From: Herbidospora cretacea
Lineage (GTDB): Bacteria > Actinomycetota > Actinomycetes > Streptosporangiales > Streptosporangiaceae
Length of the DNA: 64,000 bases
Assembly: GCF_001570605.1 (NCBI RefSeq)
Contig: NZ_BBXG01000004.1
Coordinates: forward strand, 62,001 to 126,000
Direction: 5' to 3'
Of the stretch, positions 17,561-21,333 are shown piece by piece (the stretch's first letter is position 1; each line of letters begins with the position of its first letter). The notes below the pieces were generated by a model. The model made no database searches, was not told the origin of the DNA, and saw nothing but the letters and a program-made list of their open reading frames with translations. The translations under genes were made by a program, and so were the position numbers.

Positions 17561-18544
17561 GTGCTGGTCGACTCGTTCGGGCGTGTCGCGACAGACCTCC
17601 GGGTGTCGCTGACCGACCGATGCAACCTTCGGTGCAGCTACTGCATGCCGCCGGAAGGTCTCGACTGGCTGCCCAAACCCGACCTGCTGACGGCCGACGA
17701 GATCGTCCGCCTGGTCACCGTCGGCGTGCGGGACCTGGGCATCACCGAGGTCCGCTACACCGGCGGGGAGCCGCTGCTGCGGCGCGAGCTGGTCGAGATC
17801 GTCTCCCGCACCTCCGCCCTGGGCGCCGAGATCTCCCTGACGACCAACGGCATCGGCCTGGCCCGCCTGGCCGCCCCGCTGGCCGAGGCGGGCCTCCACC
17901 GGGTGAACGTGTCCCTCGACACGATCGACCGCGAGACGTTCAAGAAGCTGGCCCACCGCGACCGCCTCCCCGACGTCCTGGCCGGTCTGGAGGCCGCCGA
18001 CGCGGCCGGTCTGCGCCCCGTGAAGGTCAACGCGGTGCTGATGCGCGATGTGAACGACCACGAGGCCGCCGGCCTGCTGCGCTACTGCCTCGACCGCGGC
18101 TACCAGCTCAGGTTCATCGAGCAGATGCCGCTCGACGCCCAGCACGGCTGGAGCCGCGAGAACATGATCACCGCCGACGAGATCCTGGCCACCCTCAGCA
18201 AGGAGTTCACGCTCGTCGACGCCGACCCCCGCGAGCGGGGCAGCGCCCCCGCCGAGCTGTTCCTCGTCGAGGGCGGCCCGGCGACGGTCGGCGTGATCGG
18301 CTCGGTGACCCGGCCCTTCTGCGGCGCCTGCGACCGCGTGCGGCTGACCGCCGACGGCCAGATCCGCAACTGCCTGTTCGCCACCGAGGAATCCGACCTG
18401 CGCGCCGCCCTCCGCTCGGGGGCCACCGACGAGGAACTCGCGGCCCGCTGGCTGGCGTCCGTGGCCCGCAAGAAGCCGGGCCACGGCATCGACAACCCGG
18501 AGTTCCTCCAGCCCGCCCGTCCCATGAGCGCCATCGGTGGCTGA
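17561..18544 (+). CDS. moaA: GTP 3',8-cyclase MoaA (molybdenum cofactor biosynthesis)
   Basis: The 327-residue radical SAM enzyme has both iron-sulfur sites: the N-terminal SAM cluster at Cys21, Cys25 and Cys28 (CNLRCSYC) and the C-terminal substrate cluster at Cys254, Cys257 and Cys271 (CGACDRV and NCLF). It ends in the Gly-Gly tail needed by this family (SAIGG). It starts molybdopterin synthesis by converting GTP to 3',8-cyclo-7,8-dihydro-GTP, and so supports the nitrate reductase at 49.5 kb. The start is GTG. A DUF6457 gene linked to the same cofactor follows after 19 bases. Confidence 0.96.
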   Translation: MLVDSFGRVATDLRVSLTDRCNLRCSYCMPPEGLDWLPKPDLLTADEIVRLVTVGVRDLGITEVRYTGGEPLLRRELVEIVSRTSALGAEISLTTNGIGLARLAAPLAEAGLHRVNVSLDTIDRETFKKLAHRDRLPDVLAGLEAADAAGLRPVKVNAVLMRDVNDHEAAGLLRYCLDRGYQLRFIEQMPLDAQHGWSRENMITADEILATLSKEFTLVDADPRERGSAPAELFLVEGGPATVGVIGSVTRPFCGACDRVRLTADGQIRNCLFATEESDLRAALRSGATDEELAARWLASVARKKPGHGIDNPEFLQPARPMSAIGG

Positions 18545-18563
18545 CCTACCTGGAGGATGTTCC

Positions 18564-18797
18564 GTGAACGTGCTGGAGGAGTGGACCGCCCTGGTCTGCC
18601 GCGAGCTCGGCATCGACCCGGCGACCGTCGACCGCGACCTGGTGCTCGACCTGACCCGCGACGTCGCCCACGGGGTCGCCCGCCCGGCCGCGCCGCTGAC
18701 GGCCTACCTCCTCGGCCTGGCCCAGGGAGCGGGCACCGCGCCCCCGGACGCGGCGGCCCTGCTGTCGGCCAAAGCGGCCGAATGGACCCGCGACTAG
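18564..18797 (+). CDS. DUF6457 domain protein
   Basis: The 77-residue, mostly helical acidic protein begins NVLEEWTALVCRELGIDP and contains DLVLDLTRDVAHGVARPAAPL. This is the pattern of DUF6457, found in actinobacteria as a free protein or fused to MobA-type molybdopterin nucleotidyltransferases. GTG at 18564 has GGAGG 8 bases upstream, so it is a better start than the in-frame GTG at 18537. Its place directly behind moaA agrees with a role in molybdenum cofactor work, but no activity is known to me. Confidence 0.75.
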   Translation: MNVLEEWTALVCRELGIDPATVDRDLVLDLTRDVAHGVARPAAPLTAYLLGLAQGAGTAPPDAAALLSAKAAEWTRD

Positions 18798-18874
18798 GCC
18801 GGTTTCCCCGCGCGACGCCACGCGCTTTGGGAAGATCCCTCAGGTCGTCCTTCCTGACGAGGGGTTCGCCGATC

Positions 18875-20797
18875 ATGGACGCGCTGCTGCCCGACGATCC
18901 CGACCGGATCGGGCCCTACCGGCTGGAGGGGCGGCTCGGCGCGGGCGGCATGGGCGAGGTCTTCCTGGCCCGGTCGCCGGGCGGCCGGGTCGTCGTGGTC
19001 AAGCGCATCCACGGCCACCACGCGGGCGACCCCGAATACCGCGCCCGCTTCGCCCGGGAGATCGACGCCGCCGGCCGCGTCGGCGGGCACCACACCGCCC
19101 AGGTGGTCGCGGCCGACCCCGGCGCCGACCGGCCGTGGATGGTCACCGCCCACATCCCCGGCCCGTCGCTCCACGCGCTGGTCTCCGGCCGGGGTCCCCT
19201 CACCGCCGACGCGGTCGCCGCCCTGGGCGCCGGGCTCGCCGAGGGCCTGGCGGCGATCCACGAGCGCGGGCTGGTCCACCGCGACCTCAAGCCCGGCAAC
19301 GTGATCTGCGCCGACGACGGCCCCCGCATCATCGACTTCGGCATCGCCCGCCCACTGGACGCGAGCACCCTCACCGAGACCGGCGCGCTCGTCGGCACCT
19401 GCGCCTACATGTCCCCCGAGCAGCTCAACGGCCACCCGGCGACCCCGGCCGCCGACGTCTTCGCTCTCGGCTGCGTCCTGGCCTTCGCCGCCACCGGCCA
19501 GAGCCCCTTCCACGCCCCGTCGCCACCCGCCGTCGTCCACCGCGTCACCGCCGACGCCCCCGACCTGACGAGGGTCCCCACCACCCACGGCCTCCGCGAT
19601 CTGGTCGCCGCCTGCCTCGCGAAACCCCCCGCCGACCGCCCCACCCCAGCCGACATCCTGACCCGCCTCGCCCCGGCTCACCCTCTCGGGCAGACGGTCG
19701 CCGTCCCGCCTGGTGATGGCATCGCCGGTCTGTCCAGCGGTGAGGGCGGTGGTGGGCGTGTGGATGGTTCCGCGGGCCGGGTGATCAGTCGTCGTGTGCT
19801 GCTGGCCGGAGGGCTCGGGGTGGGGGCGGTGCTCGCGGGTGTGGGGGTCTTCCGGGCGTTCGAGCTCGGGGACGCCGCGTCGGACACTCCTGCCCCCGAA
19901 GCGACGAAGAGGTCGGTCGTGGTGGGTCATGCCGCCACGCTCACCCGCGAGGGCGGGGTGTTCGCGCTGGCGTTCAGCCCTGACGGGACGCTGCTGGCCA
20001 CCGGCGGCAGCGGCGATCCGTCGGTGGAGCTGTGGAGCGTGGCGGCCGGTGAGCGGGTGGCCGCGCTCAAGGGGCACACGATGGGGGTGAACGCGGTGGC
20101 GTTCCACCCCCAGGGATCACTGCTGGTCACGGCTGGCGGCGACAGGGAAGCAATGGTCTGGGATGTGGTCGGCCGCGTCCGTGTGGGCGTCCTGAAAAAT
20201 CCGGACATGGTGACGTCGGCGGCGTTCAGTCCCGACGGGACCCTGCTGGCTGCGGCCTGCGGCGAGAAGGGGGTGCGCGTGTGGGACATGTCCGGCCGCA
20301 CCCTCAAGGACACCTTCGACGGCCACGCCGGGGGAGCCGCCTCGGTGGCGTTCAGCCACGACGGCACGCTGCTGGCCAGTGGCGGGTCCAGCCCCTCGGT
20401 GCTGCTGTGGGACCTGCCCGCAGGGGCCCGCCCGCTCAGCCTGCTGACCACCGCGTCGGTCCACGGGGTGGCCTTCAACCCCGGCGGCACCCTGCTCGCC
20501 ACCGTCGGCGGCGAACTGCCGGTGCGCCTGTGGGACGTGGCCGCCCGCAGGGAGGCGGCGGTCCTGCCAGGTCACACCGACTCGGTGTCCGCGGTCGCGT
20601 TCAGCCCCGACGGGACCCTGCTCGCCACGGCCGGCGCCGACAGGACGGTGCGCCTGTGGGACGTGGCGGGCCGTTCTCTCGTGGACGTCCTCACCGGCTT
20701 CGGCGACCGGGTCGGCACGGTCGCCTTCAACCGCGACGGGACGCTGCTGGCCGCCGGGAGCTTCGACCGCACGGTCCAGCTGTGGAAGATCATGTGA
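18875..20797 (+). CDS. Ser/Thr protein kinase with C-terminal seven-bladed WD40 propeller
   Basis: The 640-residue protein has a Hanks-type kinase domain (about residues 8-270): glycine loop LGAGGMGEVFLA, catalytic VHRDLKPGN with Asp137, IDFG with Asp154, and SPEQLNG. One hydrophobic segment near residues 308-326, preceded by SRR, separates it from the C-terminal part. From about 348 there are seven WD40 repeats, each with an AFSPDGTLLATGG-like strand and a closing VRLWDV-like strand, the last ending at the C-terminus. The kinase should be cytoplasmic and the propeller outside, making a sensor or scaffold. It stands alone after DUF6457 and is followed by a strong hairpin. Confidence 0.9.
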   Translation: MDALLPDDPDRIGPYRLEGRLGAGGMGEVFLARSPGGRVVVVKRIHGHHAGDPEYRARFAREIDAAGRVGGHHTAQVVAADPGADRPWMVTAHIPGPSLHALVSGRGPLTADAVAALGAGLAEGLAAIHERGLVHRDLKPGNVICADDGPRIIDFGIARPLDASTLTETGALVGTCAYMSPEQLNGHPATPAADVFALGCVLAFAATGQSPFHAPSPPAVVHRVTADAPDLTRVPTTHGLRDLVAACLAKPPADRPTPADILTRLAPAHPLGQTVAVPPGDGIAGLSSGEGGGGRVDGSAGRVISRRVLLAGGLGVGAVLAGVGVFRAFELGDAASDTPAPEATKRSVVVGHAATLTREGGVFALAFSPDGTLLATGGSGDPSVELWSVAAGERVAALKGHTMGVNAVAFHPQGSLLVTAGGDREAMVWDVVGRVRVGVLKNPDMVTSAAFSPDGTLLAAACGEKGVRVWDMSGRTLKDTFDGHAGGAASVAFSHDGTLLASGGSSPSVLLWDLPAGARPLSLLTTASVHGVAFNPGGTLLATVGGELPVRLWDVAARREAAVLPGHTDSVSAVAFSPDGTLLATAGADRTVRLWDVAGRSLVDVLTGFGDRVGTVAFNRDGTLLAAGSFDRTVQLWKIM

Positions 20798-20862
20798 AGC
20801 GGGGAAAAATCTTCGTCCAGAACGAGGCGGAGTAAAGGCGCCTGCAAAGGTCTGGGAATAGG

Positions 20863-20903
20863 GCGACGCCGGGTGGTTACGGGGGCAAACCACCCGGCGT
20901 CGC
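20863..20903 (+). terminator. Terminator-like hairpin after the kinase gene (bidirectional)
   Basis: A perfect 16-bp stem beginning GCGACGCCGGG closes a 9-base loop (ACGGGGGCA), 66 bases after the kinase stop. It can end the kinase transcript on the plus strand and the candidate small RNA on the minus strand. Confidence 0.85.
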
Positions 20904-20973
20904 TTCATCGGCGTTCCGACGGGGGCCCGGAACGCCGGCACCAGCGCTCCGACGGGGGACCAGAGCGCTTGGC
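20863..20973 (-). ncRNA. Candidate 6C-like small RNA (C-rich loop hairpins)
   Basis: Read on the minus strand, three perfect hairpins follow one another. Their stems are AGCGCTC (20969-20943), GGCGTTCC (20936-20910) and a 16-bp terminator stem (20903-20863). The stems differ, but every loop holds CCCCCGT, and the first two share CCCCCGTCG. Two hairpins with C-run loops followed by a terminator is the architecture of the actinobacterial 6C RNA, although that family usually shows six or more Cs and here there are five. A TTGACG/TGTACA promoter-like pair places the start near 20973, giving about 111 bases. No protein frame explains the conserved loops. Confidence 0.55.
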
Positions 20974-20978
20974 TAAAC

Positions 20979-21008
20979 TGTACACCTACCACCCTTAGGA
21001 TGCGTCAA
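20979..21008 (-). promoter_or_regulatory. Candidate promoter of the 6C-like RNA
   Basis: On the minus strand TTGACG (21008-21003) is followed after 18 bases by TGTACA (20984-20979). The overlapping TACAGT would have a 20-base spacer. Transcription would start near 20974-20973, just before the first hairpin. The -35 is good and the -10 is mediocre. Confidence 0.4.
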
Positions 21009-21015
21009 GACTTAG

Positions 21016-21333
21016 TCACGACCCGATCTCGCGTCGATGCCGTGGTATCTCGTTTTGGTTAGCCCCGCCCATGTCCTGAGGTGGAGGAAGGTCCTTTCCC
21101 CGCTCGTTGGCACCGATCACGGCAAGGTACGGCAAAAGCACGGCGCCGGCGATGAAGGCGACCCTCAGCCACACCGGCGCCCCCGGCCACGCCACCGCGA
21201 GGATCAGGCAGACGACCCGGATCGACATCTTGATCACGTAGCTGATCTCACGTCTGCGGATGTCGGCCGACAGGGACGGCTGCGCGTCGGTCACCTGATG
21301 AACGGTCGGCTGCCGCCGATGAAACAGGTTCAC
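21016..21333 (-). CDS. DUF3099 family small membrane protein
   Basis: The 105-residue protein has two adjacent hydrophobic helices (IRVVCLILAVAWPG and VWLRVAFIAGAVLLPYLAVIGAN) between an N-terminal SLSADIRRREISYVIKM stretch and a polar tail. This is the DUF3099 pattern, a small actinobacterial membrane family of unknown role. The start is GTG. It lies just upstream of the candidate 6C-like RNA on the same strand, so some readthrough into the RNA is possible. Confidence 0.8.
   Translation of the reverse strand: MNLFHRRQPTVHQVTDAQPSLSADIRRREISYVIKMSIRVVCLILAVAWPGAPVWLRVAFIAGAVLLPYLAVIGANERGKDLPPPQDMGGANQNEIPRHRREIGS

Follow-up and report, generated by a model that had tools for sequence, protein, structure and literature searches.

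A predicted minus-strand small RNA with repeated CCCCCGU loops in Herbidospora cretacea and related actinobacteria

The stretch of Herbidospora cretacea DNA analysed here (64,000 nucleotides, hereafter the window) contains three consecutive hairpins on the minus strand, running from 20969 to 20863 and perfect or near-perfect in their pairing, in each of which the sequence CCCCCGU is read at the loop. Comparison with homologous loci leaves us in very little doubt that this is a functional RNA of the minus strand, and it looks like a conserved C-loop small RNA (sRNA) that has so far gone uncatalogued—a new family of a familiar kind, without an Rfam entry. What the comparison of relatives establishes is a conserved structure and its strand, fixed loop seeds, promoter-like boxes, a recurrent gene order, and a difference from 6C RNA.

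Structure, strand, and predicted transcript

The predicted transcript (20855..20970, minus strand; the sRNA lies at 82855-82977 of its own contig, C4) would be about 111-116 nt long and consist of three hairpins and a 3' tail, a delineation based on the folding z-score, homologues, and covariation, with the 5' end placed from the -10 box. Hairpin 1 (20943..20969) has 10 bp, 20969-20960 with 20952-20943, around the loop UCCCCCG at 20953-20959; hairpin 2 (20909..20937) has 11 bp, 20937-20927 with 20919-20909, around GCCCCCG at 20920-20926; and hairpin 3 (20863..20903), the terminator stem, has 16 bp, 20903-20888 with 20878-20863, around UGCCCCCGU at 20879-20887. Each loop holds five Cs, and the CCCCCGU reading includes the base that follows. 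After hairpin 3 comes the tail CCCUAUUCC, a segment that is richer in U in many relatives. The whole folds at -71.8 kcal/mol, versus -48.0 ± 3.7 for shuffled sequences (z = -6.46; 0 of 200 shuffles as low). An initial annotation of this DNA had described three hairpins sharing a CCCCCGT loop with five Cs, a terminator as the last stem, and a minus-strand sRNA of about 111 nt; the hairpins are all where it placed them, the last stem is supported as a terminator hairpin, and the RNA is supported as a prediction.

With E 0.01 as the cut-off, a BLAST search with a 156-base region matched 78 of 120 relatives, and matches were found in 68 of the 72 relatives from the same family, at least one of them partial at contig ends. 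The same-family genomes without a match were G016, G035, G052, and G058; since the G016 assembly, at 99% completeness, still has 6C RNA, the sRNA may have been lost or have diverged there. For the alignment we used 59 of 69 homologous loci, setting aside near-identical loci from the same genus (L003-L008) and four from outside the family and order (L067-L070), while five further same-family genomes with matches (G017, G025, G040, G046, and G060) lay outside the locus set. Standard pairs occupied 99.1% of the 2181 pair cells (59 sequences, 37 pairs), and the stems, far from lacking conservation, are kept. Compensatory changes around a fixed loop, which the initial annotation had proposed looking for, were found in 19 of the 37 pairs (7 of 10, 5 of 11, and 7 of 16 pairs in hairpins 1, 2, and 3) and in 109 cells, versus 8.1 pairs and 27.8 cells after shuffling (0 of 500), a control that ignores relatedness. 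When the partner strand was instead slid along the alignment, paired cells fell to 34.9-53.9%, a comparison that leans in favour of the structure because the structure was derived from the same sequences. The exact loops UCCCCCG, GCCCCCG, and UGCCCCCGU were retained in 57 of 59 sequences, and the base 3' of CCCCCG was U in 55 (hairpin 1), 58 (hairpin 2), and 59 (hairpin 3) of the 59, and otherwise C. Stems that differ while the loop stays fixed had been taken as a mark of selection on RNA structure, and both the covariation and the loops agree with this.

The same alignment also indicates the strand. Read on the minus strand, the paired positions include 208 G-U and 4 A-C cells, and the proportions are reversed on the plus strand; because G-U so far exceeds A-C on the minus reading, we assign the RNA to that strand, contrary to a reading in which only the plus strand is transcribed. 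The sRNA varies from 118 to 125 nt among family members with indels that are not multiples of three, and these lengths and indel sizes argue against an open reading frame.

Upstream of hairpin 1 we identified a -35-like box, TTGACG (21003..21008, minus strand), and a -10-like box, TACAGT (20977..20982, minus strand), the latter fitting TAnnnT and lying inside a conserved GTGTAC. The arrangement TTGA[CT]-21 nt-TAnnnT recurred at one fixed spacing in all 65 aligned homologues (this genome, 63 same-family relatives, and one genome from a sister family), and the putative start site was placed from it. Housekeeping promoters usually have a shorter spacing than this, so the exact -10 register given here is provisional. 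Of the TTGACG/TGTACA pair noted originally, TTGACG stands at 21008-21003, and TGTACA overlaps the better -10 match.

Gene order and occurrence among actinobacteria

Directly upstream on the same strand is a DUF3099 gene (21016..21333, minus strand, stop codon at 21016-21018; PF11298, 83.3 bits), and convergent with the sRNA is moaA (17561..18544, plus strand; Pfam Radical_SAM and Mob_synth_C); both are conserved neighbours. Between moaA and the sRNA lie, on the plus strand, a DUF6457 gene (18537..18797; PF20058) and a gene for a protein kinase with WD40 repeats (reading frame 18866..20797; Pfam). Beside the predicted sRNA promoter, the last part of the DUF3099 gene (21016-21054) is unusually conserved as DNA among near relatives, which may reflect coding or regulatory constraint.

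Synteny was counted on the 243 of 258 loci that matched our script pattern with CCCCCGT. In the 217 distinct regions, a same-strand DUF3099 match preceded the sRNA in 147 and convergent moaA was present in 132, with both in 110 and neither in 48, some regions being too short or too diverged to show neighbours; 20 further loci taken by place had moaA in 13, DUF3099 in 13, and both in 12. Orthologues between DUF3099 and convergent moaA occur in Streptomyces, Jiangella, and others, in two- or three-hairpin forms, and by virtue of these shared neighbours we treat the two-hairpin form of Streptomyces and the three-hairpin form of the window as orthologous by position and sequence. The sRNA gene is old and its address mostly fixed. 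CCCCCG[TC] was present in three copies in 90 of the 217 regions, two in 101, one in 25, and four in 1.

With covariance models, run under stricter filters that lose weak matches, we searched 394 genomes of the class; model R1 matched 112 of them at E 0.01 and model R2, the terminator hairpin, 163 at E 0.001. Across the phylum R2 matched 25 of 396 genomes, and its 9 matches outside the class were weak, at most 37.9 bits. A pattern scan gave at least 117 named loci, and the matches listed include Streptomyces, Kitasatospora, Nonomuraea, Microbispora, Nocardiopsis, Jiangella, Micromonospora, Dactylosporangium, Actinoplanes, Geodermatophilus, Blastococcus, and others, with three-hairpin loci among those listed for Nonomuraea, Microbispora, and Nocardiopsis, a distribution that would point to Streptosporangiaceae in the broad sense as the family of the window. 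In an alignment of 37 diverse, hand-picked terminator hairpins (a 38th choice, L047, was left out), 9 of 16 pairs changed on both sides, in 48 cells versus 9.4 after shuffling, and CCCCCGT was invariant, partly by selection since the search pattern included it. Of 40 loci examined among the R1 matches, which were found without that pattern, 37 have the loop in their terminator hairpin; in one (L130) the loop has four Cs, and two weak matches without the loop (L137 and L138) were judged to be chance.

Other forms depart further from that of the window. In Micromonosporaceae and Geodermatophilaceae just one C-loop hairpin is present, directly after a -10-like box; these forms are related by sequence and lack moaA and DUF3099 as neighbours. 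At loci of this single-hairpin kind (L155, L168, L175, L206, L208, and similar) the -10-like box stands a few bases before the hairpin, and they are possibly sRNAs of about 45 nt. Streptomyces-type hairpins, for which we used 85 of 130 loci (among L102-L111 and L139-L258) picked by the exact hairpin string, are preceded by a GTGACATACT -10 and by an upstream region that is likewise conserved but different; GTGACATACT occurred 69 times in these upstream regions and GTGCCATACT 7 times. In 75 of the 85, CTCA repeats spaced 11 nt apart precede the sRNA (47 of 85 with a stricter motif). Direct repeats of eleven bases are typical of response-regulator sites, and from this resemblance the Streptomyces-type sRNA is probably regulated, the CTCA repeats being a possible response-regulator site.

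Proposed action and competing explanations

The account that we prefer, and consider fairly likely, is that the RNA acts in trans as an antisense RNA, its CCCCCGU seeds annealing to ACGGGGG close to mRNA starts, a reading that fits several hairpins with one exposed seed, the presence of that seed in the terminator, and a predicted private promoter. A stand-alone sRNA would be transcribed from a promoter just 3' of the DUF3099 stop codon, beginning at or beside hairpin 1 and ending at hairpin 3 as its intrinsic terminator. Every hairpin would expose the identical seed in an open loop, and the seeds would block translation by annealing to ACGGGGG stretches, whose most plausible location is a ribosome-binding site or its immediate surroundings; ACGGGGG can itself be, or overlap, a G-rich ribosome-binding site. 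Several copies of the seed may confer higher avidity or allow more than one site to be bound. Transcription as drawn, base-pairing, translational repression, and the identity of the targets are the parts of this account that we infer.

Searches for targets found none, which counts against this account, and gave the following. No consistent ACGGGGG was found near the starts of the conserved neighbours moaA (0 of 104 regions), TldE (0 of 79), and DUF3099 (6 of 166); the counts for other neighbours were 0 of 44 for DUF6457, 1 of 23 for TldD, 3 of 47 for FabG, and 0 of 5 for RtcB. We therefore rejected a cis target among the conserved neighbours, the motif appearing near the start in at most a few regions per gene. 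In the genome of H. cretacea, GACGGGGG near ATG, searched as GACGGGGGN{2,9}ATG, gave 50 matches, compared with 15 for the pattern read backwards, an unfair control as it lacks ATG. Among the 30 of these 50 loci that we examined, a few resemble true gene starts and most were unconvincing.

Evidence in favour of pairing came from a single family (f16), in which 11 of 12 genomes carry the C-loop terminator and the locus (L259-L269) is confirmed by its neighbours TldE (10 of 11) and moaA (6 of 11). About 47 nt upstream of the terminator, 6 of the 11 loci have ACGGGGG and 3 have GCGGGGG, the motif being absent from L261 and L264; we count this seed complement within the same RNA, (A/G)CGGGGG in 9 of 11 loci, in favour of pairing, with the caveat that the loci are related and the counts thus not independent. 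It is as if hairpin 1 had been swapped for its own complement, and intramolecular kissing—a loop-loop contact, which lies outside minimum-free-energy folding—is possible. Also counted against the antisense reading are several class-level loci (L126, L127, L129, and L133, for example) in which the hairpin preceding the terminator has no CCCCCGU.

Fixed loops would also suit protein binding. In that case the CCCCCGU loops would serve as a decoy, titrating an RNA-binding protein in the manner of multi-hairpin sponge RNAs known elsewhere, and mRNA pairing would not be the function. Stems of unrelated sequence that carry one identical loop, in one to three copies, are the anatomy of a protein sponge too, but the complementary G-rich element of family f16 points to base-pairing, and copy number goes down to one in some lineages; we think a decoy unlikely. 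Slightly less probable again is that the hairpins are the mere 3' end of the DUF3099 transcript, terminating and stabilising that mRNA with no role in trans. The 147 of 217 regions in which DUF3099 precedes the hairpins on their own strand agree with this. However, the fixed-spacing promoter-like boxes lie between the gene and the hairpins, Streptomyces-type loci have their other conserved upstream region and GTGACATACT -10, the loop sequence is fixed and not the stem alone, and no DUF3099 match was obtained in 70 of the 217 regions, some of them short or too diverged.

An antisense RNA might also have 16S rRNA as the partner of its seed, acting on 30S assembly or availability across actinobacteria instead of on individual mRNAs, and the seed would then be invariant because the partner itself is; we hold this to be improbable. 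Hairpin 2 (20918-20929) is an exact 12-nt complement of GACGGGGGCCCG in 16S rRNA, which we take to be the helix 28 region in E. coli numbering; none of the three 16S genes examined (L331, L332, and L333) contains a second ACGGGGG. In order-1 Markov sequences of one 16S composition (3000 draws), chance occurrence was 39% for ACGGGGG, 14% for GACGGGGG, 3.9% for the 9-mer GACGGGGGC, and 0.03% for the 12-mer, percentages uncorrected for the several loops and targets tried. Against this reading, the 12-mer is conserved no further than part of its own family, matches of 8 and 9 nt to a 16S gene are also obtained with loops of the 6C RNA as controls, and for some hairpin 3 loops the only matches lie elsewhere. 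A 13-nt match of hairpin 3 to 23S rRNA is identity, not complementarity, and hence gives no pairing. The H. cretacea assembly gave no 16S match (23S was found), and of four other genomes searched three gave 16S and one (G231) none, probably reflecting assembly gaps or masking. Were 16S the partner, the internal seed complement of family f16 would close the RNA in a loop-loop contact.

The initial annotation had proposed a 6C-type RNA, and the common architecture, C-run loops on hairpins, might suggest a true, if diverged, member of the 6C family; we regard this as very improbable. The check that it named, the Rfam 6C covariance model (RF01066), returned no match within E 10 in a permissive scan of 20700-21200, and a gathering-score scan of the whole window against Rfam gave 0 matches. 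The sRNA is likewise without a match in Rfam 15, and ten loci scanned (three of Streptomyces or Kitasatospora type) gave 0 matches with a 6C control locus (L001) recovered. Moreover, the 6C gene of H. cretacea lies on another contig (C28:14178-14253, 55.9 bits), 6C is present in 57 of 72 genomes searched, and the two RNAs occur in 39 genomes, including this one, always at different places. We rejected 6C membership on the missing model match, the separate 6C gene, and three stem-loops with five Cs followed by GU versus two with at least six; what survives of the proposal is the 6C-like design, hairpins with C-rich loops in what appears to be a real, selected sRNA. Least probable of all is that the structure terminates the kinase gene, as a plus-strand or bidirectional terminator; a long stem about 65 bases past the kinase stop codon would suit this, but we dismiss it since the kinase was matched in only 6 of 243 loci and the wobble counts (208 G-U versus 4 A-C) put the structure on the minus strand.

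Comparison with known small RNAs

In S. coelicolor numbering, moaA presumably lies near SCO1821. Two groups of Streptomyces sRNAs with C-rich loops, scr5583/sar2652/svr5279 and scr1434/sar6912/svr1031, are reported from Northern blots (PMC3765725) and share the loop character of our RNA; we set them apart by their locus numbers, which point away from moaA. The conserved streptomycete antisense sRNA scr5239 is similar in kind, but the cited excerpts describe five stem-loops, 159 nt, and the binding motif GCUGCGG (PMC7025569, PMC4365011), and we rejected identity on the stem-loops, the other motif, and the lack of an Rfam match at the ten loci. By covariance model, the best sRNA resemblance was to alphaproteobacterial ar7 (RF02342), likewise three hairpins with C-rich loops; at 17.2 bits versus a gathering score of 60 (E 0.37) this is chance level, and membership was rejected. 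An Rfam-based sRNA table for S. lividans gives other families in the part available (PMC8079986). We found no publication naming an sRNA at moaA/DUF3099; supplements were outside the search, so S. coelicolor catalogues (e.g., PMC4895711) may list the Streptomyces orthologue.

The closest parallel in design is 6C RNA (RF01066), like ours an sRNA of actinobacteria built from short hairpins whose loops contain runs of C. Going by the title of one paper, 6C sRNA reportedly binds mRNAs via its C-rich loops, which would be a precedent for the antisense reading. To our knowledge, few actinobacterial sRNAs are known beyond one genus. According to the passages available, 6C is defined by two stem-loops, each with at least six Cs (PMC8388888), and corresponds to scr3558 of S. 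coelicolor, where mutation had no effect according to a personal communication (PMC8539372), while roles in the SOS response and sporulation are cited elsewhere (PMC6789036, PMC9569102, PMC4046766). It is thus widespread, yet its function is still unsettled in what these sources state. The RNA described here would be a second C-loop RNA, matched in all but four of the 72 same-family relatives, found at this address in many Streptomyces too, and with a fixed 7-base seed in one to three copies, and the Streptomyces orthologue beside moaA would make C-loop RNA function directly testable in streptomycete genetics. The two differ in that 6C has two loops with six or more Cs, whereas the RNA of the window has three hairpins, each with five Cs plus GU.
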